Part shown: piece by piece, positions 251 through 14,036 of the stretch
How positions within the stretch are numbered: the first letter of the stretch is position 1
How the letters are laid out: each line of letters starts with the position of its first letter
IMG/VR virus record: IMGVR_UViG_3300029319_000539
Coordinates: 1-23,140 of that record
Reading direction: 5' to 3' (one strand)
Length of the DNA: 23,140 nt
DNA from: a virus
Position numbers and translations under genes: made by a program
Notes under the pieces: generated by a model
What the model saw: only the letters and a program-made list of their open reading frames with translations
Database searches by the model: none
Told to the model about the DNA's origin: nothing

Positions 251-280
251 ATTTATATATCGAAATTAAAGTGCTATTTT
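251..280 (-). promoter_or_regulatory. Late promoter candidate 1 (AAAAT-N13-CGATATAT-N3-TAT)
   Basis: On the minus strand AAAAT (280-276) is followed after 13 nt by CGATATAT (262-255), then 4 nt, then the ATG at 250. The terminator at 293-315 ends just upstream, so this is the only room for a promoter of the leftward gene. If the A of ATG is +1, CGATATAT occupies -12 to -5 and AAAAT about -30 to -26. The promoter role is inferred; the sequence and spacing are seen directly and shared by five sites. Confidence 0.6.
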
Positions 281-292
281 GTATAGATGTAT

Positions 293-315
293 AAAAAAAG
301 GGGGTAAAAACCCCC
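293..315 (-). terminator. Rho-independent terminator after the tail-tube candidate
   Basis: Read on the minus strand there is GGGGG (315-311), a 6-nt loop, CCCCC (304-300) and seven T (299-293). It lies about 22 nt past the stop codon at 338. It closes the unit that includes the capsid and tail-tube genes. Confidence 0.85.
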
Positions 316-337
316 TCTTAAATCAAACAAACTAATA

Positions 338-862
338 TTAATTTACGTCAATTTGAGTACCTTGTGATTCTGCATTATAAGCTGCTGTTGTTACAAAATC
401 AGGTGCTTCTGTTTCTTGTGAAACAAACGTTAGAGAGTAGCCGTAAAGGTCTCCCATAGCTGCTCCATTTGAGAAATTTCCTGTTGTCAATTCTGCTCCG
501 TGATCTTTTCCAACTAATCTAAAGTTACCATTATAATCTTCTACTATGATGTGTGGTCTCGAAACTGCGAGTAATTTAATTTCAGCTTGAGTTTTTTCTT
601 CTTGGAAGATTAGATTCATTACAACAGTAGTTTCATAGAAAGTAGTTCCATTTTCTCTTGATGAAGTTACAACTGTGTCCATAGTTGAATTACCTTTGAC
701 ATCAAACTTCATAAAAGTTGGACTTCCTCCAAAATCTGTTATCATTTCATTTGCAATAGTTAAAGCACCTAAAGTACCATAATCTGCAAATGTAATTGAT
801 TTAATACCTCCTACCCCTGATTTACAAGGTAGTTCTCTTCCTTTTGTTAGTGTACAAGCCAT
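338..862 (-). CDS. Putative major tail tube protein
   Basis: The 174-aa protein starts MACTLTKGRELPCKSGVGG and has the character of an abundant, beta-rich structural protein without membrane segments. The motif TKGR.LPCK..VGGIK near the N-terminus followed by FADYGTLG is one I associate with tail-tube or major tail proteins of Bacteroidetes phages, placed just after the major capsid gene. That is recall, not a search. It lies between two hairpin terminators: the one at 876-910 ends only 13 nt before its ATG, leaving no space for a promoter, so it must be made by read-through from the capsid transcript. The A/T-rich leader just before ATG fits Bacteroidetes initiation. Alternative: another major virion protein such as a head-tail joining or decoration protein. 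Confidence 0.6.
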   Translation of the reverse strand: MACTLTKGRELPCKSGVGGIKSITFADYGTLGALTIANEMITDFGGSPTFMKFDVKGNSTMDTVVTSSRENGTTFYETTVVMNLIFQEEKTQAEIKLLAVSRPHIIVEDYNGNFRLVGKDHGAELTTGNFSNGAAMGDLYGYSLTFVSQETEAPDFVTTAAYNAESQGTQIDVN

Positions 863-875
863 ATTATTATTTTTT

Positions 876-910
876 AAAAAAAAAGGTAAGTAGGCCTATA
901 CCCACCTACC
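876..910 (-). terminator. Strong hairpin with T-run between capsid and tail-tube genes
   Basis: The minus-strand RNA has a 10-bp stem, GGUAGGUGGG paired with CCUACUUACC (two G-U pairs), a 6-nt loop and then nine U (884-876). It follows the capsid stop codon at 933 by 22 nt. Because the next ATG is at 862, it probably acts as a partial terminator or as an RNA-processing or stabilising hairpin, not as an absolute stop. Confidence 0.8.
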
Positions 911-932
911 TTTCTTTATGTTATACAAATTA

Positions 933-1829
933 TTAAGAGTATAATACGATATCTGAACCGATCCCGTGCTGTACTCCTGCACTTCCTCTTAATACCACTC
1001 TTACATTTTGACTTCCATCAATATCTGCCATATCAATTAACTTAACTTCTTGCCAATCATTTAATAGACCTGTTCCGAAGAATAAGTTTGAAGATTCAGC
1101 AGCCACCATTTTATCTGCACCTAAACCTGGAGCAGTAAATAGTGGAATACCTTGAAAGTTCATTTCTGTTTTTCCAACGTGATATAATTCTCTATAACCT
1201 AATGCTGCTTGTGCTTGAATGTAAAACTTAGCTGCACTTGTAGGAATATAGATTTTTAAATCTTCTTTATTGTAAACTCCACTTGGAATAGCATCAACTA
1301 CTTTTCCTAATTCAGCAATAATGTTTGAAGCTGATAGTGTAGTACCTGATACATCAACAACGTCGCTGTCTGCTGCTAATAATGCTTGAAAGCCGTCAAA
1401 CTCTCCATTGTTTGCAGTAGCACCTTGCCAAATGTTTTGCTCTACTTTCTCAGCAACTTTTGCTGCAACTTGTGCAATTAAGAAATCAGAAAATCTTCTA
1501 GGAAGATTGTCATATTGACTGAAACCCATACTCGCTGATTCCCAATCTTGTCTGAAATCTTTTTTACATAGTTGTAAGTTTACTTGAAACTCCTCTGGTT
1601 GTAAGATTCTTTCTGTTAATGTTACGTTTGAAGTTGGGTCAAAGTCGCAAGACGCATCTTTTAAAATGCTATCTAATGCAAGTTTTTTGATAACTTCTTT
1701 AAATTTTATGTTGGGTTTTATTGAAACCCCTCCTTGTGATAATGTAACTCCACTTAATAGAGCTGCTGCGATATATTCCCCAGCAAACTCGCCTGCGTAT
1801 GAAGTTGTTATACTTGTTGTAGTAGCCAT
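933..1829 (-). CDS. Major capsid protein (HK97-fold type)
   Basis: A 298-aa protein of the size and texture of a major capsid protein: a small-residue N-terminal arm (MATTTSITTSYAGEFAGEY), a long helical spine-like region around residues 110-140 (RFSDFLIAQVAAKVAEKVEQ) and a beta-rich C-terminus (VRVVLRGSAGVQHG). The IPTSAAKFY and FQGIPLFTAPGL segments fit the A-domain and P-domain strands seen in capsid proteins of Bacteroidetes phages. It is preceded by a candidate decoration gene, a scaffold candidate and a protease, the usual head-gene company. The leader before ATG 1829 is A-rich. It contains none of the GGCC sites common elsewhere, consistent with different constraint on a highly expressed gene. 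The protein assembles the icosahedral shell around the scaffold. Confidence 0.85.
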   Translation of the reverse strand: MATTTSITTSYAGEFAGEYIAAALLSGVTLSQGGVSIKPNIKFKEVIKKLALDSILKDASCDFDPTSNVTLTERILQPEEFQVNLQLCKKDFRQDWESASMGFSQYDNLPRRFSDFLIAQVAAKVAEKVEQNIWQGATANNGEFDGFQALLAADSDVVDVSGTTLSASNIIAELGKVVDAIPSGVYNKEDLKIYIPTSAAKFYIQAQAALGYRELYHVGKTEMNFQGIPLFTAPGLGADKMVAAESSNLFFGTGLLNDWQEVKLIDMADIDGSQNVRVVLRGSAGVQHGIGSDIVLYS

Positions 1830-1855
1830 ATCTCTTTTATTTATTTAATTAATTA

Positions 1856-2275
1856 TTAACTTGGGTCAGTAGCTGTAATTGAACCTGCTGAGTTTCCGAT
1901 TCCCCAAACATACCATTTGCTACCATCAGACCAGATGTCGATAAAGTCTCCAACTGATTCTGCTGATGCAACAAAGTTAATTTGATCTTCTCCAGAAGCT
2001 GCTACAGATGCACCATTTACTACTAAAATTCCATCTATATTATCTCCTTCTGCACTATCAATTATGTAATTTGAAGTATCAAATGCGTTTGCTACAACAA
2101 ATCTAAAGTTTAGTCCAGATTCTACTGCTGGTAATGTTACTGTTACACCTGCACTTGCTGCAAGTTCGTACCATTTACCACTATCTGCTGATGTAAGAGT
2201 AACTGCTGCTGATACTGCATCAACATCATTTTTAATTCTTACAACATCATTATTAACGTGTGTTAAAACTGCCAT
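1856..2275 (-). CDS. Putative capsid decoration or head-fibre protein
   Basis: A 139-aa, Cys-free, strongly beta-type protein with no signal peptide. It begins MAVLTHVNNDVVRIKND and contains a VTLTSADSGKWYELAASAGVT stretch of the 'expected value then white-space' type seen in fibre and decoration proteins, followed by VTLPAVESGLNFRF and IDIWSDGSKWYVWGIG near residues 110-125. Its position directly upstream of the capsid gene and downstream of the scaffold candidate argues for a head-surface protein made in high amounts. I do not recognise a named family with certainty. Alternatives are a head-completion protein or tail-tip decoration. The start is preceded by a run of AAAT-type repeats, an A-rich leader typical of Bacteroidetes. 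Confidence 0.6.
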   Translation of the reverse strand: MAVLTHVNNDVVRIKNDVDAVSAAVTLTSADSGKWYELAASAGVTVTLPAVESGLNFRFVVANAFDTSNYIIDSAEGDNIDGILVVNGASVAASGEDQINFVASAESVGDFIDIWSDGSKWYVWGIGNSAGSITATDPS

Positions 2276-2290
2276 AATTATTTATTTTAT

Positions 2291-2896
2291 TTATTTATTT
2301 ATTATAGTTTCCATCACTCTATCAAGAGTAGATTTTCTTCTGTTTCCAGCGAATTTAAATTTCATCTCTGTTTTAGATTCTTCTGGACTGTGTTTCATAG
2401 GTTCAGCAGCAGGTTTAGATAACTCTTCTTTAAGAGATTCTTTTTCTTCTGCTTCACTATTCAAGACTTCTGTTACTGCAAGAGAAACCTCTTCTGCAAC
2501 TTGAGAGGACATTTTTTCTTTTTCTTTGTCCTTGTGATCCATCATTTTATCAATATGCTCTTTCAATTCATCCATTTCTTTTCTGAACTCTTCTCTTGTA
2601 ACATATTTCATTTCTTCCTTATCCTCATCTTCTTCGTGTTCTTCTGCTTTGATTTCTTTGATGATACCTTCTTCTTCAACTACAAGAAGTCTATTATCTT
2701 CAAGTTCATATTCTCCAACAGGAAGAGCAACTTTCTCATCCTCAGTACGAATAAAAACTTCTTTACCTGATTCAAAAGCGTCTGCTTCCAAAACAGTTCC
2801 ATTCTCTAATTTTAATTCAGCTAATTGAATATCAGATTCAGATAGCTCAACTCCCAATAGATTTTTAACTTGATTTAAAATTTCTGTTGCTTTCAT
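2291..2896 (-). CDS. Putative capsid scaffold protein
   Basis: A 201-aa, very acidic, lysine- and glutamate-rich protein. Residues about 1-80 form a compact domain with LENGTVLEADAFESGKEVFI and ALPVGEYELEDNRLLVVEEE, and residues about 85-165 are a predicted coiled coil (EEFRKEMDELKEHIDKMMDHK and onward). The C-terminal 30 residues are basic (FKFAGNRRKSTLDRVMETI), the usual layout for a scaffold whose C-terminus binds the inner capsid surface. It sits between the protease and the capsid protein, which is the expected place for a scaffold. It likely directs procapsid assembly and is removed by the protease at 3109-4719. The ATG at 2896 is fixed by the CGATATAT element 4 nt upstream. Confidence 0.7.
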   Translation of the reverse strand: MKATEILNQVKNLLGVELSESDIQLAELKLENGTVLEADAFESGKEVFIRTEDEKVALPVGEYELEDNRLLVVEEEGIIKEIKAEEHEEDEDKEEMKYVTREEFRKEMDELKEHIDKMMDHKDKEKEKMSSQVAEEVSLAVTEVLNSEAEEKESLKEELSKPAAEPMKHSPEESKTEMKFKFAGNRRKSTLDRVMETIINK

Positions 2897-2926
2897 AATT
2901 ATATATCGATTTTTAAAATTTATTTT
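2897..2926 (-). promoter_or_regulatory. Late promoter candidate 2, before the scaffold-decoration-capsid genes
   Basis: On the minus strand AAAAT (2926-2922), 13 nt, CGATATAT (2908-2901), AATT, then ATG at 2896. The site lies in the 36-nt gap between the Cys-rich micro-gene and the scaffold gene, and its outer box reads GCAAAATA. Same geometry as the other four sites. Confidence 0.55.
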
Positions 2927-2932
2927 GCATTT

Positions 2933-3109
2933 TTACCCTGTTCTAGATACTCCATTTATAGTCGCATTACTGCCACCTTTCAAAGCACCTATACCTTGTG
3001 CGTGTAATTCTCCTGTACAACATTCTATCTTGTATGTTAATTTATCTTTACATAAACAAGCTCTTCTGCCATCAATAGGACTTGTATAACTTGGTATATA
3101 ATCTTTCAT
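2933..3109 (-). CDS. Cysteine-rich 58-aa phage protein of unknown function
   Basis: A 58-codon frame starts at ATG 3109, overlapping the stop codon of the protease gene by one base (TAATG), and ends at TAA 2933. The product has four cysteines in its first half (RRACLCKDK and YKIECCTGELHAQGIG), spaced so that they could bind a metal ion or form disulfides. I recall short proteins with the same GRRACLC and QGIG motifs in marine Bacteroidetes phages, always near head genes, with no known role. Coupling to the protease and the promoter-like element just after it make it the last gene of its unit. Confidence 0.75.
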   Translation of the reverse strand: MKDYIPSYTSPIDGRRACLCKDKLTYKIECCTGELHAQGIGALKGGSNATINGVSRTG

Positions 3110-4719
3110 TACTTATTACTTTTAGGATGTCCTTTTGGTAGTAAGTCAAAGTCTCCTGTGTATTTAGGATTCTGTGGCCTACCATTTCTAACTAAATAGA
3201 GATACGCATTTACCCTCGCTTGAGCCCAAGCTGTAGGGGATTGTATTCTTGGACTATGTGATACATTGAAAGCACCTAGTCCTCTTTGAAATACTGCTTT
3301 TAACTGTCCGATTGTAACACCATAACCTAATTTTTCTTTATATCTTTTATTAAAATCGTCAGACTTTTTTTGCAAAGTTGCTTCATCTTTCTTACTTACT
3401 TTTGCACCTCTACTTGTAGAAGCATCTCCCTTTGCTGTACCCTTGCCTTTTGGACTTGGATTTGGTGTACCTGACTTTGGTGCTTTTGGACTTTTTCTTA
3501 TACCTCCTCTTGGCCCTATCTCAGCCATCTTTACGCATTTATGTTTTTGATAATCTTTTTTATATCCCTTTGGACATTTATACTTTTTAAATTCTTCTTC
3601 TGTAAGTGCGTGTTTTTCACAAGGCATATACCAAGTTTGACCTTCAAAATCGTGTTCGTGTATTCCTTCACATCCAATATCTTCTGCAATTTTTTCAGCC
3701 ATCTCTTTCGAAGCATAAGCTAACCTATCCATAATGATTGCAAAGTCATCATTTACTTTTTCACTATAGAGTTCTAATTTGCCAAGTTCTTTTAATTTTC
3801 TCTCTGCATACCTTTTACCTGCAAGGCCACCCCATAATAAATATGATATTGTACCACAGGCTTCTTTATCTTCTGGTTTATAATACTCTTCTGCTCTTGA
3901 CAAAAACGAATACATACGAGTTACAGTTTGCTCTGATATTGCTCTACCTTGTGCAAGTTGTTGCGCCCTTATTTTACCAACATCAGTAGCACATCTGTTA
4001 TTTACTTTTTTATTTAACTCAATACCTCTTTTTGCATTATTCTTTACTGCATCAGGATAGTCTGAGAAACTTTCAAATATTATTCTTTTACCACCTTTAT
4101 ATCTTTTGTCATTTCTAATTATACCTTTTACTTGTGATAAAAGTTCTTGTGCTTCTTCTTCCTCTATTTTTGCAAGATCGCTTATTGTCTGGTCTTTTGG
4201 TCTTTCTGCTTTATCAGCAAAATAACCTTCAATAGAGAAACCTTTTACTTTTCCTGTTTTTACAAACTCTTCCCATACTTTGTCATTGTTTACTTTTACT
4301 GCACCTACCCAAGTTCCAACAGGATATTCAAGACCATATAAAGCTGTTTTGTCTTTCTTGGTATCTTCAACTATCCAACTCTCAACTAATGAAAGGCCTT
4401 TTAAAGTGTGCTTGTGTTCTAAAGTAGAATTGTTTTGGTTGCCTTTCTGTAAATAAATTTGGGAGGCCTTTCTTACTGTATCTCGTGAGAAGTATATATA
4501 ATATTCATCTTCTCCACTTTTCCTATAAATAGGTTTGTTTGGAATTAGTAAAGCTCCCAAAAGAATCTTTTTTTCTTTATCTACTTGTGCAAGTTGAATT
4601 ACCTGTTCATTATTGAGTGCTATGAAATCTTCTTCTATTGCAGGGTTTTCAACTATACTTATTGCTTCGATTCCAGTTAAATCTTCGTTATCATCTAAAA
4701 TTAATTCAACTATCTTCAT
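3109..4719 (-). CDS. Multi-domain prohead protease (XkdF-like) with C-terminal DUF5824-like domain
   Basis: This 536-aa protein has at least three parts. Residues about 1-170 match the XkdF/peptidase S78_2 type of prohead protease: the N-terminal ISIVENPAIEEDFIAL signature, STLEHKH with the candidate catalytic His at about 102-104, LVESW with candidate Ser at about 114, and GKVKGFSIEGYF. Residues about 205-315 contain RAQQLAQGRAISEQTVTRM and GTISYLLWGGLAGKRYA, a module seen fused to phage head proteases. The C-terminus (about 440-536) contains TIGQLKAVFQRGLGAFNVSH and ARVNAYLYLVRNGRP, which I would place in DUF5824. Between them lies a Cys/Lys-rich linker (KCPKGYKKDYQKHKCVK) and a Gly/Pro/Ser/Lys-rich stretch. 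It probably processes scaffold and capsid protein during maturation. Most of it may be removed by self-cleavage. The start is supported by the upstream element. Confidence 0.8.
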   Translation of the reverse strand: MKIVELILDDNEDLTGIEAISIVENPAIEEDFIALNNEQVIQLAQVDKEKKILLGALLIPNKPIYRKSGEDEYYIYFSRDTVRKASQIYLQKGNQNNSTLEHKHTLKGLSLVESWIVEDTKKDKTALYGLEYPVGTWVGAVKVNNDKVWEEFVKTGKVKGFSIEGYFADKAERPKDQTISDLAKIEEEEAQELLSQVKGIIRNDKRYKGGKRIIFESFSDYPDAVKNNAKRGIELNKKVNNRCATDVGKIRAQQLAQGRAISEQTVTRMYSFLSRAEEYYKPEDKEACGTISYLLWGGLAGKRYAERKLKELGKLELYSEKVNDDFAIIMDRLAYASKEMAEKIAEDIGCEGIHEHDFEGQTWYMPCEKHALTEEEFKKYKCPKGYKKDYQKHKCVKMAEIGPRGGIRKSPKAPKSGTPNPSPKGKGTAKGDASTSRGAKVSKKDEATLQKKSDDFNKRYKEKLGYGVTIGQLKAVFQRGLGAFNVSHSPRIQSPTAWAQARVNAYLYLVRNGRPQNPKYTGDFDLLPKGHPKSNK

Positions 4720-4749
4720 AATAATATATCGTTTATAATTAACTATTTT
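4720..4749 (-). promoter_or_regulatory. Late promoter candidate 3, before the prohead protease
   Basis: AAAAT (4749-4745), 13 nt, CGATATAT (4731-4724), TATT, ATG at 4719. The gap between the tape-measure stop (4752) and the protease start is 32 nt, so the element fills it almost completely; the outer box is ACAAAATAG, identical over nine bases to candidate 1. Confidence 0.55.
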
Positions 4750-4751
4750 GT

Positions 4752-6467
4752 TTATCCTAAAGCACTTTCTTGAATTATGTTTCTTTCTAATCCTTGTGCT
4801 GTTGTTACGTCTCCTGAAACTACAAATGCCTTTACAGGTTTACTTGTTTGTTCTGCCAAAGTTTGTGCTAATTGATTTTGAGAATCGCTACCAACAATAT
4901 TAAATGAAGGTACTTGTGGAGCTGCTCCACCTCCTGTGCTATAAGACCTACCACCTCCTGTTGCACCTGCTGGTGGTTCAGGGGTTTTTGTAGCTAATAT
5001 TGTTTTTACGTTTGCAAGACCACCTGCAATAATACCAATGGCTGCAACTGCACCGAAAATACCTCCTTGAGCAATAGCTTTATTTGCACCTGCGTATGTA
5101 TCAATTATAGCTTGAGCAACTGCAACGGCTTTTCCGAACTTACTATTTTCTCCTGCTAATTTACCAAGTCCACCTAAAGCACCTGATATTATTGACAGTT
5201 TAGCTTCTTGTGTAAGTTCTGTAATTTTTACTTCTGCTTCTCCACTTTCTTTTTCTAATTCTTCTTTCTTTTTATTGAAATCATCTTGAGCAGCTAATAA
5301 CAGTCTATTCTTTTCCTCTTCATCAGTAACCTCTTTTTCTATTAATGCTTTTTTCTCATCTAAGGCTTGTTGCAATTCTATAAGTTCTATTTCTCTTTCT
5401 GTTTTACCGATTAAAGCAAGTTCTTTATTTAACTCCTTTTGTTCTTCGAGTAAAGCATTTTCATTTGTAAGTTGTTCACTTCTTTGACCTGTTACTCTTG
5501 CTTGAATTGCTCCTTGTTCATTAAGAGCTTCTTGTAAAGCAGTCTGTAACTCAATATTATCCTCATTACCTTTTAGAGCTGCTCTTGCTGCATCTACTGC
5601 TACTTGAGAGTTCTTAAGCATTATTTCTGTTTGTTCATCTAATATTTCTCCTAATCTTCTATTTGCTTCTATCCTTTCTTCTATACTTAATGATGTATCA
5701 TCTCTTAACTGTCTTTGTTGCTCTGCTTGTACATCATACTTTTCTATGAGGCCTTGATTTTCTGCATTTAATAACTGTGCTGAATTTGCAAGTTTAACAT
5801 TTGCACTTGCTGTCTTAACTGTTTCAGTAGCATATTTAGTTGTTGCTTCTGCAACTTTAGTAACTGTTTCAACTGTTTTGTCAAAACTATCATCTACACC
5901 TGTAATAACATCAAATAATTCTTTACCTGCATTTTTTGCACTTTCTGCTGCTCCTTTAAAATCTCCTTCAAATACTTTTTTTATGGCCGTGCCTACAAAT
6001 CCTATAGCATCTAACATTGACCTAAATCTTTCTATCACATTGTCAAAAAGTGATTTACCAAAATTCTTAAGGCCTTCTACAGAAAATATTTGTTTAAAGG
6101 AATCTGCTACACCACCAACATTATCCAATACTAAGTTTATGAAATCATTGAAAACTATTCTTACAGTTTCAAAAGTAGTAGCAAAAAAATCAGCAACTCT
6201 TTGATTTGAATTTAAGACTTCTGTAAATTTTGCAAAAGCTGCAATTACCAAACCAATACCAATAGCTTTTAGTGCAGTACCTATTTTTGTAATGCCACCA
6301 GCAGCTTTGCCAGAAGATTTTTCTACGTCTTTAAGGCCTTTTGATGTTTTATCTGTGGTCTTAACAGCTTCTTTATTTACGCTTTGTATTTCCTTCTTTA
6401 AGTTTTTTACTTCTCTTACTGCTGTACCAGACTTAATTGTAAAATCTACTATTATTTCTTTTGCCAT
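4752..6467 (-). CDS. Tail tape measure protein
   Basis: A 571-aa protein beginning MAKEIIVDFTIKSGTAVREV, a typical tape-measure opening. It has a hydrophobic segment at about 58-80 (TKIGTALKAIGIGLVIAAFA), long predicted coiled coils from about 225 to 425 rich in Glu, Gln, Ala and Leu, and a second hydrophobic segment near 465-495 (FGAVAAIGIIAGGLANV). The C-terminal part is rich in Gly, Pro and Ser (about 495-520). It sets tail length and is passed into the host envelope on infection; at the usual ~0.15 nm per residue, 571 aa would correspond to a tail of about 85 nm (inference). The start overlaps a 48-aa gene by 16 nt. It is the last gene of the tail unit. Confidence 0.88.
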   Translation of the reverse strand: MAKEIIVDFTIKSGTAVREVKNLKKEIQSVNKEAVKTTDKTSKGLKDVEKSSGKAAGGITKIGTALKAIGIGLVIAAFAKFTEVLNSNQRVADFFATTFETVRIVFNDFINLVLDNVGGVADSFKQIFSVEGLKNFGKSLFDNVIERFRSMLDAIGFVGTAIKKVFEGDFKGAAESAKNAGKELFDVITGVDDSFDKTVETVTKVAEATTKYATETVKTASANVKLANSAQLLNAENQGLIEKYDVQAEQQRQLRDDTSLSIEERIEANRRLGEILDEQTEIMLKNSQVAVDAARAALKGNEDNIELQTALQEALNEQGAIQARVTGQRSEQLTNENALLEEQKELNKELALIGKTEREIELIELQQALDEKKALIEKEVTDEEEKNRLLLAAQDDFNKKKEELEKESGEAEVKITELTQEAKLSIISGALGGLGKLAGENSKFGKAVAVAQAIIDTYAGANKAIAQGGIFGAVAAIGIIAGGLANVKTILATKTPEPPAGATGGGRSYSTGGGAAPQVPSFNIVGSDSQNQLAQTLAEQTSKPVKAFVVSGDVTTAQGLERNIIQESALG

Positions 6468-6598
6468 TTTATTTCATTTTTTATTTGTTTAAACGTATCT
6501 GTAAACGTAGTTGGAAGATTATACTTGCCTTGTGCTATTCTGATATTCTCAGTTTCTCCATTTGCAAATTCCAATAGTTGTAATATACTTTGTAACAT
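6452..6598 (-). CDS. 48-aa protein of unknown function between baseplate-like and tape-measure genes
   Basis: ATG 6598 lies one base after the stop codon of the 864-aa gene (TAATATG) and the frame ends at TAA 6452, inside the start of the tape-measure gene, with a 16-nt overlap. The product begins MLQSILQLLEFANGETENIR and ends with a basic helix (TFKQIKNEIKWQKK). It has no cysteines, signal peptide or membrane segment. The tight fit between two tail genes, leaving no other use for the 130 nt, supports it as a real coupled gene, perhaps a tail-assembly factor. Function unknown. Confidence 0.7.
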   Translation of the reverse strand: MLQSILQLLEFANGETENIRIAQGKYNLPTTFTDTFKQIKNEIKWQKK

Positions 6599-6599
6599 A

Positions 6600-9194
6600 T
6601 TATATTTTATTTAATAATTCTAAACTACTCTCTCCTGTTTGTAAGTTTGTAGTTATTTTGTTTATGATAAATTCTTCATTTGCAATAACTATTGTATCAC
6701 TTAGTTTATAATTTATAAGAAAACTTTGTGGTAGTATTGCTTTGACTTTTACTAATCTTCTGTTGAAACTAAATATGTCGCTTAAATAATTTCTATAATA
6801 AGTTTTAAATAATGTCTCAGTATCTATAGTTGGGATGAAAGGATCAATTTCTGTACTAAAGTTTATTGTTTGATTTTCTGTAACCTCTGTGTATGCGATT
6901 GTAATATTAGATATATTATCAAAATTACTTGTTATAACTACACTATTTGTAATTACATTATTTATTGTTGTATTGTTATTTGGTGCAACTGTTGCTGTTT
7001 GAGTTGCATTGTTACTATCAAAGTAACTAAATGTAATTGAACTCGATTCTGCTGAAGCAACTGTTAAGGTTACATTAGAAGTACCTTGTCTGAAATTTGA
7101 AGGCCTATTGTATGTTGCTAAATAAGCAGGTGTACTTGCATCAATACCTGAGTGCATCATAATTTTTTGTGGAGATGGACTGCTTGTGTTTTTTCTTACA
7201 AACATCAAAGGATTTGCCACTACTGAATTTTGGTTGTCATCTACAAAATAACCGAAACCTATATTTGTACTAGCATCATTGTTCTGGTCTGTAAGTCTTT
7301 CATAGAGTACTTTTTCAAATCCTACCTCAACTCTATAATCTTGACCTCTATTTAATCTTGGGTCTCTACCACTATTCGGAGCATTACTTGCTTTTACAGA
7401 ACCATACTCTCTTGAATTTAATCTATCATAATAATACGATGCAAATGTTTTAGGTTCACTAAATTTAAATTCTATATCATTAAAAGGTACACTAAAATTA
7501 CTTTCACTCTCATCTATCTTTACAAACTCTGTAATATCTCTTGTTGTACCACCTGCATAAAAATCGTCAAGTGTTTGTACCTTTACTTGGTCAAAGGTTG
7601 AACTATTTACATCATTATCTACAAATGCTGTCAAGTTAAATGTCTTAAATAAAGACGTAAGAAAATTAAGTATTTTCATATCAGGTATTTGTTCTGTGAT
7701 ATATATAGTATCAACAACTCCTGTAGGCCCTATTGTTTGTGGTTGTACAGAATAGGTTGTTGTACCTGTAGCTATCTCTTCAAGTATTTTTTGACAAGTA
7801 AGTAAATAACTAACAGTAAGAGCTGTCTCTGTAGTTTCAATAACAAATTCTATATTATTATCTTCCATCGAAAGAGGATCAACACTTTCAAATAAATGGT
7901 CTATTGTAGTTGCTGCTGTACCTGAAATGTGTTCTTGTTCTACAATAGTTTCATTTGTTCCTGTCTTTCTTAATCTTACTGTAAAACTTTTTGTATTAAC
8001 AGTAGGCGTTACTGTCCAAGTAACTCTCATTCTCTCTATTTCATCAAACTGAGTAGAACCTAATATACCTGTTTTAAATCTAAATATACCTCCATCAAAA
8101 ACAGGGGAAAAACCTGTAAAACTATGTGGAGGCGTAAGGCCACCTGTACCATCAAAGAACTCTATTACATCTCCTGTAAAACTTGAAATCTTGTCAAGCA
8201 CTATTAAGTTTGTACCTGAACTATTTGAAGGTGTGATTCCTATGTCGCCTTTATTTCTGTGTAGCCACATATATAAATCTGCAAAGAACCCTGTATCCTT
8301 AAAAAAATCATCTGTAAATTTTAAATTTATATTAGGGTCTTGTTCTATAACCTTTATAATATCTATTATTCTTAATGCTGGTTTTAAGTCTGTAAATTGA
8401 AAGCCTTGTGTACTACTTAATCTTTCTGTTGCACCTGAACCTGTAGTGTTTTGTGAACCACATTCGTTAGTATACAAGTTTCTTGTAAGCTGACTTCTAT
8501 CTTGTGAAGTCAAAACACCTTGATTCAAACTATCAAATATAAATCTCTGTGTATGTGATATAAGAGGATAGATAATATGTGGTACTGATACTGTTTGGTC
8601 ATTTAATTGAGTTACAAATGTTTCAACACCTTGCTTTACAGTAGTTGCATTATAATCGTGATTAAACTGACTAAAGTCTAAACTACTTAGTTTTCTATCT
8701 TTTACTCTATCTTTTAATCTTATAGTTTGGCCGTAGAATGTAATGTTATAACTATCAGGTACATTGTTTTTTAATTTTACACCATTCATTACAATATACC
8801 CAGCTCTAAATGGTTTGTAGTTTAATTCAAGTATTGCATCAAGTTTTGAGTTTGCATCAAATATAGCATCAGGCGTAGCATCACTTACTATGTCTCTTCT
8901 GTAATAGTGTTTGAATAATCTATTGTTTATACTACTCGCAGGAAGATTAAATGTTCTACTAAAATCTGTAAATACTTTTTCTATATCTCTAATATCTTGT
9001 ATAGTTTGTGTAAGTGTGATCTGCTCATCTTCAAACAAATCTAAATGCTGAAAGTTTATATCAGTAATAAGATTTATTTCATCCCATTTTCTAAAAGTAT
9101 TTTCCCAAAGAGTTTCTGTCAAATTCCATAAGTCAGGATTTGGCTGAGGACTTTCTAGTATTATACTTGGAATTGATAGGCCTACTTGATTCAT
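6600..9194 (-). CDS. Large tail or baseplate-like structural protein
   Basis: An 864-aa protein with an N-terminal section (about 50-170) containing DEQITLTQTIQDIRDIEKVF, TFNLPASSINNRLFKHYY and KPFRAGYIVMNGVKLKNN. I recall this combination from large tail-tip or baseplate proteins widespread in Bacteroidetes phages, usually beside a protein like 9194-10333. The rest is Thr/Ser/Asn-rich and beta-structured, with LLTCQKILEEI and FLTSLFKTFNLTAFVDND in the middle. No enzymatic motif is visible. Its stop codon overlaps nothing, but its start overlaps the stop of the upstream gene (position 9194 shared). It probably forms part of the tail tip or distal-tail hub; host-receptor contact is possible but not shown. 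Confidence 0.65.
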   Translation of the reverse strand: MNQVGLSIPSIILESPQPNPDLWNLTETLWENTFRKWDEINLITDINFQHLDLFEDEQITLTQTIQDIRDIEKVFTDFSRTFNLPASSINNRLFKHYYRRDIVSDATPDAIFDANSKLDAILELNYKPFRAGYIVMNGVKLKNNVPDSYNITFYGQTIRLKDRVKDRKLSSLDFSQFNHDYNATTVKQGVETFVTQLNDQTVSVPHIIYPLISHTQRFIFDSLNQGVLTSQDRSQLTRNLYTNECGSQNTTGSGATERLSSTQGFQFTDLKPALRIIDIIKVIEQDPNINLKFTDDFFKDTGFFADLYMWLHRNKGDIGITPSNSSGTNLIVLDKISSFTGDVIEFFDGTGGLTPPHSFTGFSPVFDGGIFRFKTGILGSTQFDEIERMRVTWTVTPTVNTKSFTVRLRKTGTNETIVEQEHISGTAATTIDHLFESVDPLSMEDNNIEFVIETTETALTVSYLLTCQKILEEIATGTTTYSVQPQTIGPTGVVDTIYITEQIPDMKILNFLTSLFKTFNLTAFVDNDVNSSTFDQVKVQTLDDFYAGGTTRDITEFVKIDESESNFSVPFNDIEFKFSEPKTFASYYYDRLNSREYGSVKASNAPNSGRDPRLNRGQDYRVEVGFEKVLYERLTDQNNDASTNIGFGYFVDDNQNSVVANPLMFVRKNTSSPSPQKIMMHSGIDASTPAYLATYNRPSNFRQGTSNVTLTVASAESSSITFSYFDSNNATQTATVAPNNNTTINNVITNSVVITSNFDNISNITIAYTEVTENQTINFSTEIDPFIPTIDTETLFKTYYRNYLSDIFSFNRRLVKVKAILPQSFLINYKLSDTIVIANEEFIINKITTNLQTGESSLELLNKI

Positions 9195-10333
9195 TATCTG
9201 ATTGTATTTATTTTATCAAATGCAAATTTAAAATTGATAGTATAGTTTGCTAACCTATCATTAAGACTTGTTTTAAATACTACTTGTTTATCTTGTGGTA
9301 CAACAGGTAGCTGCTGACTATCTTTGAATATCCAACATCTTGGAGACATCAATAGCTCTTCTATTACTTGGTTGTAACTATCATTCACATAGCCTGTATT
9401 TAATACTATGCTTTCTCTACTCATTACATTTCTTGTTTTGTATTGATGGTTATTTATAGAATAACTCGCACCTGTTGTTAATGTATTTGCTTTGTATTCT
9501 TCTCTTTGTACATCAATACTTTCTATAGATTTTAGAAAAAAGTTTACTCTTTGCAAAGCACCGAATCTATTGACAAATGTTACAGGTAGATTTGTAAATT
9601 TATTACAAGGCTGTTCTTCTATTAGTATCGTTTCTGTACTGCCTCCTTTCACAATATCTACGCTTGTGAGTGTGGCCGTGTTACTTGTTGCATATTCTAT
9701 TGCTGTATTTGTTGTATCTATTCCTGTACCTACAGTAACACTTGTAACTGTGCTTGATCCATTTTTAAAATTGACTGTTGTTGCTCCTGTTAAAGTATCT
9801 GCACCTGAATTTACACTAAGGTTTGCTAATACAGGTATTTTAAGAATCTCTTGGCTCTCTCTAAATATTTTATTGTTTGACATCAATACAGATGTGCTAC
9901 CTACAAAACTACTTAAAGAAACAGTTGTGTTACTGTTTGTTTGTGTTTCTGTTGTAAAACCATTTTCAAAATAACCTACACCATCAAAGGCCAACATATT
10001 AGTTGTTATCGCAGAGAGAGCAGCACCAGCACTATTTGATGGAGTTGCTACAGTCTTTACCCAAAGGTTTAATCCGTTGTTTCCAAATGTACCATTGAAA
10101 CTATATGTAATATAATCTTTTATCAACTCTCCTATCTCAAATATTACAAAGTTATTGTTTGCTACCTCGTTTTTTCTAAGTGCATAAGTTGTACTTGGAC
10201 TTGTTTGGTATGTTCCTGAATATATTGAAATTGTTAGTGTACAACTAGATAGTGCATTGGATTCTGTTCCTCCACCATCATTTGCTACTTTTATATATAT
10301 AGGACTATTTATGTTTACTTTATATATTGCCAT
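9194..10333 (-). CDS. Tail structural protein of unknown exact role
   Basis: A 379-aa protein beginning MAIYKVNINSPIYIKVAND, rich in Ser, Thr, Asn and Val, with repeated short beta segments (for example TGATTVNFKNGSSTVTSVTV). Near residues 245-275 it has EEQPCNKFTNLPVTFVNRFGA, and near 325-340 YNQVIEELLMSPRCWIF, a pattern I associate with conserved tail proteins in marine Bacteroidetes phages. It overlaps the gp10-like neck gene by 14 nt and the 864-aa tail gene by one base, so the four genes are translationally coupled. Distal tail or tail-tip protein is my best guess. Confidence 0.55.
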   Translation of the reverse strand: MAIYKVNINSPIYIKVANDGGGTESNALSSCTLTISIYSGTYQTSPSTTYALRKNEVANNNFVIFEIGELIKDYITYSFNGTFGNNGLNLWVKTVATPSNSAGAALSAITTNMLAFDGVGYFENGFTTETQTNSNTTVSLSSFVGSTSVLMSNNKIFRESQEILKIPVLANLSVNSGADTLTGATTVNFKNGSSTVTSVTVGTGIDTTNTAIEYATSNTATLTSVDIVKGGSTETILIEEQPCNKFTNLPVTFVNRFGALQRVNFFLKSIESIDVQREEYKANTLTTGASYSINNHQYKTRNVMSRESIVLNTGYVNDSYNQVIEELLMSPRCWIFKDSQQLPVVPQDKQVVFKTSLNDRLANYTINFKFAFDKINTIR

Positions 10334-10826
10334 CTTCTATTGTTTTTTCTGCATCATTTACAAATGCTGCTATTAATTCTGGGGGTAAAGTTTTAAATCG
10401 TTTCTCAAAAGGTTTTGTAAAAAATAGACTTGGCCTGATGCCTTGTTCAAATATTGATTTGGCTATAATAAAATTTAGGCCTTTTCTTTTTGTGAATCTA
10501 CCTCCTTCTTCTCTTGGTGCAATACCTTTTCTTACTGTCCATTTATCAAAAGCTGATGAAGGTGGTCTCTTAGTTGTATATTTGAAAGGTGTCTTATATT
10601 TCTTCTTTGTACCTGAAACACCTTGATCTTGATATGCACCATATTCCTCCATCAAGAATTGTAAGATGAAACCTGAACTATCTGACAATATTTTATAGTC
10701 AAGAGAGTTATATAGTTTCTTGGAAACATTCTTATTTGTTTTTGTAAGATTGCTTCTTGATTGTTGAATTACATACTTAGCAAAACTGTTTAATATCTTT
10801 TGTGTCTCTTGTAATTCCATCAGCAT
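10320..10826 (-). CDS. Putative neck protein, HK97 gp10-like
   Basis: A 168-aa basic protein with an N-terminal helix (MELQETQKILNSFAKYVIQQ), a central FLMEEYGAYQDQGVSG motif followed by a Lys/Pro-rich stretch (KKKYKTPFKYTTKRPPSSAF), and a C-terminal part with RPSLFFTKPFEKRFKTLP. The combination 'EEYGxYQDxGV...KKKY...PS.FFTKPFE' is the usual look of HK97-gp10/Mu-gp-type head-tail connector proteins in Bacteroidetes phages. It lies directly after the tail-completion candidate and overlaps it by 7 nt. Two ATG codons near the start (residues 1 and 3) are both possible starts. Confidence 0.6.
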   Translation of the reverse strand: MLMELQETQKILNSFAKYVIQQSRSNLTKTNKNVSKKLYNSLDYKILSDSSGFILQFLMEEYGAYQDQGVSGTKKKYKTPFKYTTKRPPSSAFDKWTVRKGIAPREEGGRFTKRKGLNFIIAKSIFEQGIRPSLFFTKPFEKRFKTLPPELIAAFVNDAEKTIEDGNI

Positions 10827-11290
10827 TTACTTATATCATTCTCTATTAGTATATTCATTGTAGCTGCCCATCCTGCTAATTTGTTTTCAAATCTTTCATA
10901 GAAAGGTTCACAAGAAGGGTCTCCATCTAATTGGTATTTGGTTGTATATAAACTACCTCTTCTAAGTAACACTATAATTCTATTAAGTACGGCCAACTGT
11001 GTATTCAAAACATCTTGTTCATTGTCATTTCCCACAAATATATCTGTCTCTGCATCTTTGTATTCATTTATCATATCCATAGCCATAATTGTAATATTGA
11101 AAGACAATACTTGTTCTTGTGTAGTTACGTTATTTACTATAATATGAGCAAGAGGAAATATTGTTTGTTTGTTCAAATCAATATCTGTTATATCTCCTGT
11201 TGTTACTGTATTGATATTGCTATCGTTTAACAAGTTATCTTTTATAGTTGTTGTAAGTTGATAAAACCCTCTTATACCTTGATTACTCAT
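10820..11290 (-). CDS. Putative tail completion / tail terminator protein
   Basis: A 156-aa protein starting MSNQGIRGFYQLTTTIKDNL, with DIDLNKQTIFPLAHIIVNNV, a Asp/Glu-rich loop, DVLNTQLAVLNRIIVLLRRG and EPFYERFENKLAGWAATMNI near the C-terminus. The 'fixed helix, then PF.ERFEN.LAGW' end is typical of tail-completion (terminator) proteins of the gpU class in these phages. It is placed immediately after the tail-assembly chaperone. Its ATG overlaps the TGA of the frameshifted chaperone frame (ATGA at 11290-11287), not the stop of the unshifted frame at 11373, which supports the frameshift product. Confidence 0.6.
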   Translation of the reverse strand: MSNQGIRGFYQLTTTIKDNLLNDSNINTVTTGDITDIDLNKQTIFPLAHIIVNNVTTQEQVLSFNITIMAMDMINEYKDAETDIFVGNDNEQDVLNTQLAVLNRIIVLLRRGSLYTTKYQLDGDPSCEPFYERFENKLAGWAATMNILIENDISKC

Positions 11291-11541
11291 CTTGTTCTAT
11301 TTTTTAATTGTTTTGATTCTAATTCACTTTTCTCTTTCATAAAACTTAACATAGTCAAACACTTGTGTACATTTAGTTCAACGATATGCTCAAATCGTCT
11401 AATATCCCCCTGAGAGAGTGCAAAAATTGATTGATACCATCCCCATTTCTGCCCAAATTGAGAGACGGAGGTAAGGGCTTCTCCTTGTTCTGTTCCAAAT
11501 AAACTGTCATAAGCCTCGACAAGTCGATTCCTAAACGATAA
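11287..11541 (-). CDS. Tail assembly chaperone, -1 frameshift extension (gpT-like part of a gpGT-like fusion)
   Basis: This frame has no start codon near its beginning; it is entered by a -1 shift at T9 (11548-11540) inside the chaperone gene. It encodes 84 residues beginning LSFRNRLVEAYDSLFG, with the conserved-looking core KWGWYQSIFALSQGDIRRFE and CLTMLSFMKEKSELESKQL. The 'WGWYxxIxxLxxGDxxxFxxI...L.V...LT.L.F...K.E.E' pattern is what is found as the second half of tail assembly chaperones in related phages. The frame stays open through 85 codons, crosses the unshifted stop at 11373, and ends at TGA 11287 in an ATGA overlap with the next gene. The fusion would be 245 aa against 216 aa for the unshifted form. 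Confidence 0.75.
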   Translation of the reverse strand, partial: LSFRNRLVEAYDSLFGTEQGEALTSVSQFGQKWGWYQSIFALSQGDIRRFEHIVELNVHKCLTMLSFMKEKSELESKQLKNRTR

Positions 11542-12023
11542 AAAAAAAGCATACTACCAAGTACAATATCCATTGGCATATCCTTATATACATCTTGACC
11601 TTCTGCTTTATACTCCTCTATGGTATATTTGTTTTTATAAGTGTTTATGATTGGCCTATAAAGAACTGCCATAGCTTTTTCTACTTGTTCCCATTTACCT
11701 AAGTAAGTATCAAGATCAACATATTCTCCCAAAGTCATATCATCTAGGTTTGGTATAAAACCATACTCTATACCATTGAGTACAAACCTTGTTTTGATAT
11801 GTGGCTTTTGTTCAAACATATCTGCAAGTATTCCTGTAATTCTATGAACGTCTTTTGCTTTTAAAGTGTAGGCCTCTTTGAGACTTATACCACAAAATAT
11901 TTCTATCATTTTAGAAGCTAGAAAGTTCTCATCTGTATTATCTTCTTGTATCTTGACAAACTTCTGATACTGCCATAATTTGATTTCTGACAAATCATTT
12001 GGTACAGTTATTTTAACTCTCAT
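11373..12023 (-). CDS. Tail assembly chaperone, unshifted form (gpG-like)
   Basis: A 216-aa protein from ATG 12023: MRVKITVPNDLSEIKLWQYQ, then KMIEIFCGISLKEAYTL, RFVLNGIEYGFIPNLDDMTL and YRPIINTYKNKYTIEEYKAE. This pattern is typical of the tail-assembly-chaperone genes of Bacteroidetes phages. Residues 159-161 (Leu-Phe-Phe, CTT TTT TTT) form the slip site; beyond it this frame encodes a different, also family-like tail (NGDGINQFLHSLRGILDDL). An upstream TTG start at 12059 is possible by frame but falls in the T-run of the terminator, so I reject it; ATG 12023 has the CGATATAT element 4 nt before it. The role is to chaperone tube subunits around the tape measure; it is normally absent from the virion. 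Confidence 0.75.
   Translation of the reverse strand: MRVKITVPNDLSEIKLWQYQKFVKIQEDNTDENFLASKMIEIFCGISLKEAYTLKAKDVHRITGILADMFEQKPHIKTRFVLNGIEYGFIPNLDDMTLGEYVDLDTYLGKWEQVEKAMAVLYRPIINTYKNKYTIEEYKAEGQDVYKDMPMDIVLGSMLFFYRLGIDLSRLMTVYLEQNKEKPLPPSLNLGRNGDGINQFLHSLRGILDDLSISLN
11541..11547 (-). other. Programmed -1 frameshift slippery heptamer T_TTT_TTT
   Basis: In the zero frame the codons are CTT TTT TTT TAT at 11549-11538, so the heptamer T TTT TTT has the canonical X XXY YYZ phase. Both tRNAs can re-pair perfectly one base back. The run is nine T long (11548-11540), so RNA-polymerase slippage is a second possible route to the same fusion. An upstream stop in the -1 frame (TAG, overlapping AGT ATG just before the run) limits entry to this spot. 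Confidence 0.7.
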
Positions 12024-12053
12024 ATATATATATCGAAATCTAAAGTGGATTTT
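12024..12053 (-). promoter_or_regulatory. Late promoter candidate 4, before the tail assembly chaperone
   Basis: AAAAT (12053-12049), 13 nt, CGATATAT (12035-12028), ATAT, ATG at 12023. The T-run of the terminator ends at 12058, so only 34 nt separate termination from the start codon. The tail genes need a new transcription start here, and this element takes up nearly all of that space. It is the strongest single argument for promoter function. Confidence 0.65.
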
Positions 12054-12057
12054 TGAC

Positions 12058-12088
12058 AAAAAAAAAGGAGGCCAATTTGAGACCTCCT
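12058..12088 (-). terminator. Rho-independent terminator after the terminase unit
   Basis: On the minus strand an 8-bp stem, AGGAGGUC with GGCCUCCU (one G-U pair), a 7-nt loop and nine U (12066-12058). It ends the unit holding small and large terminase and the two small genes at 12144-12459, and directly precedes promoter candidate 4. Confidence 0.88.
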
Positions 12089-12090
12089 AT

Positions 12091-12162
12091 CATTCAGTTA
12101 TTATGAAAAACTAAACTAAATATGTTGCAATTAAATTAAACAACTAACTAATTAACTGAATG
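12091..12162. repeat. 10-bp perfect inverted repeat with 52-nt spacer
   Basis: CATTCAGTTA at 12091-12100 is matched by TAACTGAATG at 12153-12162. It lies in the 3' untranslated region before the terminator and reaches into the stop end of the 27-codon gene. It may extend the RNA structure at the transcript end. Chance is possible in AT-rich DNA, but ten bases with four G/C per arm is notable. Confidence 0.4.
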
Positions 12163-12227
12163 TATACTCCTATATAAAATACTAACCAAAGTAGTAATGC
12201 TTTTATGAAAAATTTAATATCTGACAT
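12144..12227 (-). CDS. 27-aa single-span membrane micro-protein (possible)
   Basis: A 27-codon frame from ATG 12227 to TAG 12144. The product starts MSDIKFFIKA, continues with one hydrophobic stretch of about 16 residues (ALLLWLVFYIGVYIQL) and ends at ISerStop. The leader is AAAAACAAAACAATG, a typical A-rich initiation region seen at real genes here, and the start is 11 nt past the stop of the 73-aa gene. It is too short for family recognition. The hydrophobic core and leader favour a real gene, but it could be noise in an AT-rich 3' region. Confidence 0.45.
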   Translation of the reverse strand: MSDIKFFIKALLLWLVFYIGVYIQLIS

Positions 12228-12237
12228 TGTTTTGTTT

Positions 12238-12459
12238 TTAAATTAATCCGTTTTCAAAAAGATATCTTTCATCGTAAAAATCGAAACCTGGATTTCTTTT
12301 TTCTCGTAATGCTTGTTCTTTAGTTTCACATTCAACACAGAATCCTGTTTCCTTACATACTACCATATAAGGGTATTCTTCTCCATCTGTTATATAAAAT
12401 GTAAAATCGTCAGGGTCTAACCAAACCCAATCTTTCGTGTTATCTTTTAAGTTACTCAT
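12238..12459 (-). CDS. Hypothetical acidic protein, 73 aa, with CxxxxxCxxC
   Basis: The product is acidic and aromatic-rich (KDWVWLDPDDFTFYITDGEE), with a short Cys motif (VVCKETGFCVECETKEQAL) at about residues 34-52. That could bind a metal ion, but only three cysteines are present. It lies between the large terminase and the terminator and is transcribed with the terminase genes. I do not recognise it. The start ATG has a CAAAACACTATG leader. Confidence 0.65.
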   Translation of the reverse strand: MSNLKDNTKDWVWLDPDDFTFYITDGEEYPYMVVCKETGFCVECETKEQALREKRNPGFDFYDERYLFENGLI

Positions 12460-12544
12460 AGTGTTTTGCTTTTAATTATACAGCTAATATAATACTTTTT
12501 TGAATATAATTAACATTTTTTAATAAATATTTTATCTACCTCTG

Positions 12545-13711
12545 TTATCTTATAACATATTTACCTTTGTTTGGCCTTTCTAATTGCATCATAAGTGCAT
12601 ATCGAGCTGCATCAATGCAGTCAGGATGTAGGCCTGTAGGTTTCTGTATATTGTTTCCTTCTTTATCTTTATCCCATACATAGCCTTGTAGTTCTCTAAT
12701 TAGATTCTTCGATCTTGATGTTACATACACTTCATTCTGATTTATGAGGTTTATACCATAGATTACAGAATCTCTACCTTTTGTAACAGGAAATATTCTA
12801 TGGCCATAACTTCTAATTTCTTGTATTGATTTGGGTTCTGCACTATCTGCGTAAATATGTTCTAATGCTCTGCTATCAGTAATAAAATTACTTATGTCTC
12901 TATTTAACATACCTTTTCTATACAGCAGCTCATCAAATATATAAGCATTGTTCCATTTGTATAATCTTATGTAAGTTGTAGGGTCTACAGAATATCCAAA
13001 GTCAAGACCTGCACAAAGAAGCCTTGCATCATCTGGTAATTTATCTATTGACTTCCAATCAGGAATACAAGCACCCTCTAAACTACCTATCTCTCCAAGT
13101 CCATATACTTTCCACCAATTAGCCCAATATGTAGATGTCTTAGCTTTTACTCTTGCTTTCTCTATTTCTTTTACTATTGACTTTGGTAAACTATCATTGT
13201 CTTTGTAAGTAAGTGTGATAAAGTTTGTATCTTCTTGGCCTATCAATTCTTTATCTACCCAAAATAAATTAGTTGGATTATAGTCAAGCCATATATTACC
13301 TGACGTTCTTACAGCTAATTGTTGGTAGGCCTCAAAGCTAATATTGTTACACTCATTGATAAATAAGTCTGTTCTTCTTGCACCTCTCAGTTTGTCTGGT
13401 TGGTCTGTGCTAAAGAACTCTATGTAACTACCATTACTAAATTCGTATTTTAAGATACTTCTATTGAACTTTCTTTCATCATACCTATTCAATACCTTAA
13501 GTATATTTAGAAAGTCTTTTAAAGCTCCTCTACGTAAGTGTGGTACTGATTCTGCAACAACGCTTATTTCTTTAAATCGATAACGCATACCATAATCTAT
13601 CAAGATCATAAGTATTGCAATAGTCTTTCCTGCTGACGAGCCTCCTCTAATTATTCGTAGTCTTTTATCAAGGCCTCTTAGTTTGTCGAGTGCCGTAGTT
13701 TTGGTAAACAT
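12545..13711 (-). CDS. terL: Terminase large subunit (packaging ATPase-nuclease)
   Basis: A 388-aa protein with a Walker A motif GGSSAGKT at residues 23-30, an adenine-binding-side segment RGGS before it, a Walker B-like DLFINECNN at about 115-123 (Asn before the catalytic Glu, as in many phage-type Terminase_3 members), and a C-terminal RNase-H-fold nuclease with GLDFGYSVDPT, YADSAEP and HPDCIDAARYA carrying the expected acidic residues. It translocates DNA into the prohead and cuts the concatemer. The start overlaps the last base of the small terminase. It is somewhat shorter than the commonest large terminases but both domains are complete. Confidence 0.92.
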   Translation of the reverse strand: MFTKTTALDKLRGLDKRLRIIRGGSSAGKTIAILMILIDYGMRYRFKEISVVAESVPHLRRGALKDFLNILKVLNRYDERKFNRSILKYEFSNGSYIEFFSTDQPDKLRGARRTDLFINECNNISFEAYQQLAVRTSGNIWLDYNPTNLFWVDKELIGQEDTNFITLTYKDNDSLPKSIVKEIEKARVKAKTSTYWANWWKVYGLGEIGSLEGACIPDWKSIDKLPDDARLLCAGLDFGYSVDPTTYIRLYKWNNAYIFDELLYRKGMLNRDISNFITDSRALEHIYADSAEPKSIQEIRSYGHRIFPVTKGRDSVIYGINLINQNEVYVTSRSKNLIRELQGYVWDKDKEGNNIQKPTGLHPDCIDAARYALMMQLERPNKGKYVIR

Positions 13712-13965
13712 CAGTCTATAAATAACGGCATATCCTCGTTTATACTGATGTCCTTAGTCTCTCTTGGTTTGCCGTACCTATAACCCATATATAAATTCAA
13801 AGCTCTCATATCTCCTTTATCAATTAAATGTTTTAGTTTTTTTATTACCTCTTCATTGTTGATTATGTTATCAAGTTTTTCTATGAGTTCTTTTTCTTGT
13901 GTTTTAGGTTTTCTACCTGCTCGTCCTTTTGTAGAATGGCCTCCATTATTTTTTCTTCCGTCCAT
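13711..13965 (-). CDS. terS: Terminase small subunit
   Basis: An 84-aa basic protein with an N-terminal NGGHSTKGRAGRKPK stretch, the standard opening of small terminases in Bacteroidetes phages, followed by a helical region with ELIEKLDNIIN and RALNLYMGYRYGKP, and an acidic C-terminus. It binds the packaging site and recruits the large subunit, whose gene starts in its stop codon. Its ATG is 45 nt downstream of the CGATATAT element at 14018-14011. The ATG at about 13985 meets a stop codon after three codons, so 13965 is the start. Confidence 0.8.
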   Translation of the reverse strand: MDGRKNNGGHSTKGRAGRKPKTQEKELIEKLDNIINNEEVIKKLKHLIDKGDMRALNLYMGYRYGKPRETKDISINEDMPLFID

Positions 13966-14006
13966 AGTAAAAATTAATAAAACATTAATTAATTAATTAT
14001 TTGTAT

Positions 14007-14036
14007 ATCTATATATCGTAAAATTTAATTAATTTT
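14007..14036 (-). promoter_or_regulatory. Late promoter candidate 5, before the terminase genes
   Basis: AAAAT (14036-14032), 13 nt, CGATATAT (14018-14011), AGAT, then ATA where the other sites have ATG. The predicted start site (about 14006) gives a leader of about 40 nt before the terS ATG. Because no start codon follows here, the shared element cannot be just a translation signal. It overlaps the last codon of the DnaA-like gene. Confidence 0.55.

Follow-up and report, generated by a model that had tools for sequence, protein, structure and literature searches.

The window analyzed here is the whole of IMG/VR record IMGVR_UViG_3300029319_000539, a linear fragment of 23,140 bases. It comes from a marine phage of flavobacterium-type bacteria and contains five promoters, which are most likely recognized by a sigma factor that the phage itself encodes. 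The promoters are copies of a two-part element, AAAAT-N13-CGATATAT, and the sigma factor is of the extracytoplasmic function (ECF) type. We consider it very probable that the five copies serve as promoters of structural (late) modules read by host core RNA polymerase (RNAP) together with this phage sigma, and that four of the five units are leaderless or nearly so. A broader proposal, that three residues on one helix face of the sigma (68, 72, and 75) form a predictive code for reading promoter bases −10, −11, and −12, is in our judgment evenly poised between right and wrong. Under the same proposal, the DNA specificity of the late sigma would have been rewritten repeatedly across a large family of marine Bacteroidota phages, with all module promoters changing in concert each time, and nearly the whole structural program would be carried on leaderless mRNAs, a kind of transcript that is rare among hosts of this phylum.

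In the mechanism that we propose, host core RNAP carrying the phage sigma would read all five promoters. The sigma4 domain would bind the AAAAT box at about −30 to −26, and the sigma2 specificity helix would read C-12, G-11, and A-10 through R75, D72, and G68. Transcription would start at the A of the ATG or 1 to 2 nucleotides (nt) from it, leaving four of the five units leaderless or nearly leaderless, while the terminase unit transcript would carry a leader of ~41 nt. The sequences themselves show the five copies, their orthology across relatives, the sigma gene, and the one-to-one covariation of sigma residues with promoter bases; we infer the binding of the promoters by the phage sigma, the late timing of these units, and the exact 5′ ends.

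A two-part element at structural module starts

The exact dyad occurs five times on the minus (gene) strand of the window and not at all on the other strand; in 1,000 dinucleotide shuffles, it appeared 0.002 times on average and once at most. CGATATAT lies at minus-strand positions 262-255, 2908-2901, 4731-4724, 12035-12028, and 14018-14011, with AAAAT 13 nt upstream in all five cases. These are the sites and the spacing that an earlier note on this DNA had given in proposing a family of phage late promoters. Its list of CGATATAT occurrences, accurate for the minus strand, omitted a sixth copy at 1769-1776 on the plus strand. That copy is antisense within a capsid-like gene and has no AAAAT box, and it therefore looks like a chance occurrence. 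As the note had also stated, an ATG begins 4 nt past CGATATAT in four of the five copies; in the fifth, ATA occupies that place, and terS starts 45 nt past CGATATAT, which is 41 nt past the inferred +1. Of the units that the five sites head, one begins with an unknown gene (2-250), one with a scaffold-like gene, and one with a protease-like gene; the other two begin with gpX, which follows terL, and with terS/terL.

Other details of the earlier description also held when the window was rescanned. Two of the sites directly follow intrinsic terminators. The gene strand has no CG[AT]TATA beyond the five sites and hence none in the replication or lysis half. At −12 to −5, where a host sigmaA TAnnTTTG box would be expected, the five sites read CGATATAT, and no TAnnTTTG match overlaps them.

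The note had proposed searching relatives for the motif, and ~480 loci were gathered from viral contigs. In the loci closely related to the window, the element recurs at these module starts on the gene strand, and more than 100 relatives carry it at orthologous module starts, always on that strand. Clade A retains CGATATAT. A sister clade (clade B), whose TerL is 82 to 85% identical to that of the window and whose sigma is 39 to 50% identical, has CGTTATA at the corresponding places, where neither the AAAA box nor the distance to the ATG differs. Sites before terS keep both boxes despite differing upstream genes, and the boxes are likewise retained where the flanking DNA is nonhomologous. Promoters were also compared in 239 loci anchored on the gpX ATG; nearly all had CGTTATA, CGATATA, TTATATA, or CTATATA as the heptamer spanning −12 to −6. 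In locus L184, an apparent CGGTATA had been tallied three times from a single site; before gpX, this locus has CGTTACTA as its promoter. Because the sites are orthologous, the boxes outlast flanking homology, and the downstream box covaries with the phage sigma (see below), sequence comparison strongly supports a promoter family before structural modules. In the TTATATA class (L179, L180, L199, L247, L259, and others), a conserved GT lies just upstream (GTTTATATAT), which suggests that sigmas with N72 and K75 may make extra contacts at −14/−13.

The phage sigma factor and its specificity helix

The product of the gene at 16945-17424, in the replication half of the window, is a sigma factor of the ECF type with sigma2 and sigma4 domains. 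NCBIfam models for SigZ (E value, 1.2e-8) and sigma70-ECF (E value, 1.7e-6) match the product over residues 26 to 159, nearly its full length. It is the sole Sigma70_r2 match in the record; that Pfam match is weak for the window sigma alone (E value, 0.026), and Sigma70_r2 matches 9 of 13 family members. An AlphaFold model (mean predicted local distance difference test score, 86.5) shows two confident helical domains separated by a low-confidence linker at residues ~80 to 97. Its top Foldseek matches were all ECF sigmas in complex with RNAP or an anti-sigma, among them Mycobacterium tuberculosis (Mtb) SigE, SigL, and SigH, Escherichia coli sigmaE, AlgU, and SigW (E value, 2.3e-5; probability, 1.00). 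Whole-chain template modeling scores against ECF sigmas were only ~0.4, as expected with domains that are free to move. The protein thus has the features of ECF (group IV) sigmas: it has only sigma2 and sigma4, joined by a flexible linker; its fold is that of solved ECF sigmas; and a −10 box of the CG(T) type appears to be read by the sigma2 helix, CGTTATA being the commonest class. Since the E values are significant but the sequences are divergent, we call it ECF-type rather than assigning it to a named ECF group. A search for homologues of the sigma in bacterial genomes found none.

Both the sigma and its promoter were available in 92 loci, representing 71 distinct sigmas. Among these 71, residue 68 was G wherever −10 was A (33/33) and S, T, or C wherever −10 was T (38/38). 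At residue 72, D went with G at −11 (58/58), and a T at −11 was accompanied by N, S, or A (13/13). Residue 75 was K with T at −12 (10/10); the 61 sigmas paired with C have R there, except for one with L. When all 159 sigma columns were scanned, residues 68, 72, and 75 ranked first for −10, −11, and −12, respectively; they stand at i, i+4, and i+7 on one helix. In the open complex of Mtb SigH, N88, which bonds T-10, is the proposed determinant of specificity at that base, and the −11 pair is contacted by N92 (PMC6411747). In a profile alignment to Mtb SigE, residues 68 and 72 match the N and the D, respectively, of TTNLFLD. Residues 68 and 72 would accordingly correspond to N88 and N92 of SigH, and residue 75 would, under the predictive code, read −12. 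Apparent exceptions pairing T/D/R with TTA came from TTATATA misread within CGTTATATA and were corrected. Loop L3 was considered as a specificity determinant; L191 and L246 have a clade-B-like loop yet combine base A with G68, so helix residue 68 tracks the promoter base better than the loop does.

Several observations weigh against this account. The window sigma falls short of curated cutoffs (27.8 bits versus 42.9 for sigma70-ECF and 14.7 versus 24 for Sigma70_r2), and transcription could start 1 to 2 nt off the A of the ATG. On a sigma tree built without the helix columns, independent coordinated changes number only ~3 for −10, ~2 for −11, and ~1 for −12; one clear independent switch is that of L191/L246, nested in clade B. 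With so few switches, significance is out of reach for a sign test on independent pairs, and for that reason the rule was fixed beforehand and new loci were fetched for a held-out test combining unseen sigmas with unseen promoters. The script was correct in 23 of 26 cases, and the figure rose to 25 of 26 after two misses were read by eye, both of which hold the predicted CGTTATA inside a longer TATATA run. The remaining case, L467 (G68 N72 K75), reads TGATATA and is wrong at −11, and the held-out set contained no new CGA-class members. In addition, L198 has G68 and yet one CGTTATA site, which is not before gpX (the contig is short, with one site), and L325 carries R75L with C kept.

A search with gpX led to the Nonlabens (Persicivirga) phages P12024L and P12024S (Inhavirus); single-sequence tblastn against named phages had given no match. 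They are very distant from the window phage (gpX, ~27% identical), and their −10 sequence is CGTTAATA. Both encode a sigma-70 region 2 protein (profile E value, ~1e-12) at the syntenic place before terS-terL-gpX, with N68, D72, and R75. Their gene strands carry six AAAACA-N13-17-CGTTAAT sites (shuffle mean, 0.055), most with an ATG at the same distance; the pairing of N68 with T-10 is that found in SigH. No description of P12024L/S promoters was found in the literature searched. These phages are cultured, which makes the promoter and leaderless claims testable.

Transcription start and competing explanations

With +1 on the A of the ATG, C, G, and N fall at −12, −11, and −10, as numbered in the SigH complex, in which the open-complex register is G-11 T-10 T-9 (PMC6411747). 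The register given in the earlier note, with boxes at −12 to −5 and −30 to −26 and +1 at the ATG, is thus that of the SigH open complex. An ATG stands at the predicted +1 in 210 of 234 gpX loci (146 of 168 distinct upstream sequences) and in most other non-terS sites of the relatives. Moreover, T-1 A+1 T+2 is kept in all 37 distinct CGATATA-class terS sites that lack an ATG there. TAT is therefore part of the promoter, with the start codon superimposed on it, and the note's view that the element is not merely a ribosome signal is supported by the same observation. Taken from the sequence comparisons, leaderless late mRNAs are likely.

A related explanation accepts the promoters as described but gives the transcripts leaders of a few nucleotides, so that they would not be strictly leaderless. 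Start-site choice may shift by 1 to 3 nt. Leaderless transcripts made up 5.5% of mapped mRNAs in Flavobacterium psychrophilum (PMC9723704), which also favors a short leader. We nevertheless regard this version as unlikely, though it merits serious weight, since the SigH register sets +1 on the A of the ATG and since TAT is conserved at the terS sites as an initiator would be.

The element might instead be an operator for another phage protein that activates late transcription by the host holoenzyme. The most plausible candidate is the small protein encoded just before terS at 14029-14445(−), whose DNA-binding domain is that of the DnaA C terminus. A member of this protein's family adjoins terS in 71 of the 71 loci that have both sigma and promoter, and the family is more conserved inside clade A than between clades. 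However, the best columns of this protein reach 0.27, 0.21, and 0.23, versus 0.63, 0.79, and 0.85 for sigma residues 68, 72, and 75; across this protein and TerL together, the best column attains 0.32 of joint entropy versus 0.63 to 0.85 for the sigma. The element also has promoter geometry and a fixed distance to the start, and the host TAnnTTTG box forms no part of it. We thus find the operator explanation improbable.

Slightly less probable again is reading of the promoters by a host ECF sigma rather than by the phage sigma. An ECF-type promoter class of F. psychrophilum does have a CGT box at −10 (PMC9723704), and the sister clade reads CGTTATA. However, it is with residues of the phage sigma that the promoter letters change, as they also do in the nested L191/L246 switch inside clade B, and host sigmas would not switch along with a phage gene. 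Finally, we find it very hard to credit that the element is a feature of translation initiation or of a leader, or that it is an AT-rich repeat that arose by chance: an ATG adjoins four of the five copies, but the terS sites lack one there, the upstream box is ~30 nt off, the shuffles all but never yield the dyad, and the sigma covaries with the sites.

Relation to known systems and other features of the window

Phage ECF-like sigmas with late promoters are already known. Like the proposed factor of the window phage, gp36 of phiEco32 and gp47 of phage 7-11 redirect host core RNAP to late genes via a few highly conserved promoters (PMC4331800, PMC8948821). The 7-11 promoters are bipartite, GTAAtg-16-aCTA, with start sites 6 to 9 nt from the box (PMC4331800, PMC8948821), and the middle/late promoters of both phages have been verified in vitro (PMC8948821). 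The window shares with them a phage sigma gene and its own promoters before structural genes, here at five module starts. The hosts and the promoter sequence differ, and the portions of those reports consulted describe no leaderless arrangement. The family profile gave E values of 0.03 and 0.1 against the two sequences, gp36 and gp47, which does not place the family with them. In the absence of a profile match, the window family, which by its sequences appears to work as the phiEco32 and 7-11 sigmas do, is therefore a separate lineage; it is a new, unrelated, and widespread variant.

With bacterial ECF (group IV) sigmas (Mtb SigH and SigL, E. coli sigmaE, SigZ, and Bacteroidota ECF sigmas), the family shares the sigma2-linker-sigma4 arrangement, the fold, a CGT-type −10 in its majority class, and the helix positions that contact −10/−11 (PMC6411747). 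In contrast to them, it is phage borne, lies below the curated cutoffs, has no identified anti-sigma partner, and uses an A-rich −35 box and a −10 box that extends to CGNTATAT, after which comes T(−1)A(+1). The host ECF promoters of F. psychrophilum SM6, which have a CGT box, serve a host nutrient/secretion regulon with no phage structural genes, and a leaderless state is not shown for them (PMC9723704).

These results offer a mechanism for late transcription in abundant uncultured marine phages. The relatives form a natural and testable code book for DNA recognition by such sigma factors, and their matched sigma/promoter pairs, in which −10 switches with single helix residues, allow a direct test of the ECF recognition model. 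Given the consistent ATG at +1, one may also ask how translation of leaderless late capsid mRNAs would be achieved. The features discussed here are listed in Table 1.

Table 1 Positions of promoter copies and associated features in the window
Feature	Coordinates	Strand	Remarks
Promoter copy 1, AAAAT-N13-CGATATAT	255..280	−	Inferred +1 at 250 = A of ATG, gene 2-250
Promoter copy 2	2901..2926	−	Before scaffold-like gene 2291-2896 and capsid unit; inferred +1 at 2896; relatives retain the orthologous site
Promoter copy 3	4724..4749	−	Before head maturation protease-like gene 3109-4719; inferred +1 at 4719; sister-clade ortholog is CGTTATA
Promoter copy 4	12028..12053	−	Before gpX 11373-12023; inferred +1 at 12023
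Promoter copy 5	14011..14036	−	Before terS 13711-13965 and terL; inferred +1 at 14006, 41-nt leader
Intrinsic terminator hairpin	296..319	−	Directly upstream of promoter copy 1; −15.6 kcal/mol
Intrinsic terminator	12066..12088	−	Directly upstream of promoter copy 4
gpX, first gene of unit after terL	11373..12023	−	Anchor gene for promoter comparison
terS 13711-13965 and terL 12545-13711	12545..13965	−	
Palindrome ATTAATTAATTAAT in terS leader	13984..13997	−	
ECF-type sigma factor gene	16945..17424	−	159 amino acids, TTG start; specificity helix LRG(68)LYVD(72)LIR(75)KK

Directly after the sigma gene lies a gene resembling T5orf172/MUG113 GIY-YIG-type nucleases (16346-16948, minus strand). The palindrome in the terS leader varies with the type of TerS. 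ATTAATTAATTAAT accompanies proteins that start with MDGR (22/22), and TTGATTAATCAA or TTGAATAAACAA accompanies those with MDKR and other starts. The palindrome might be bound by TerS, mark a packaging site, or serve translational control.

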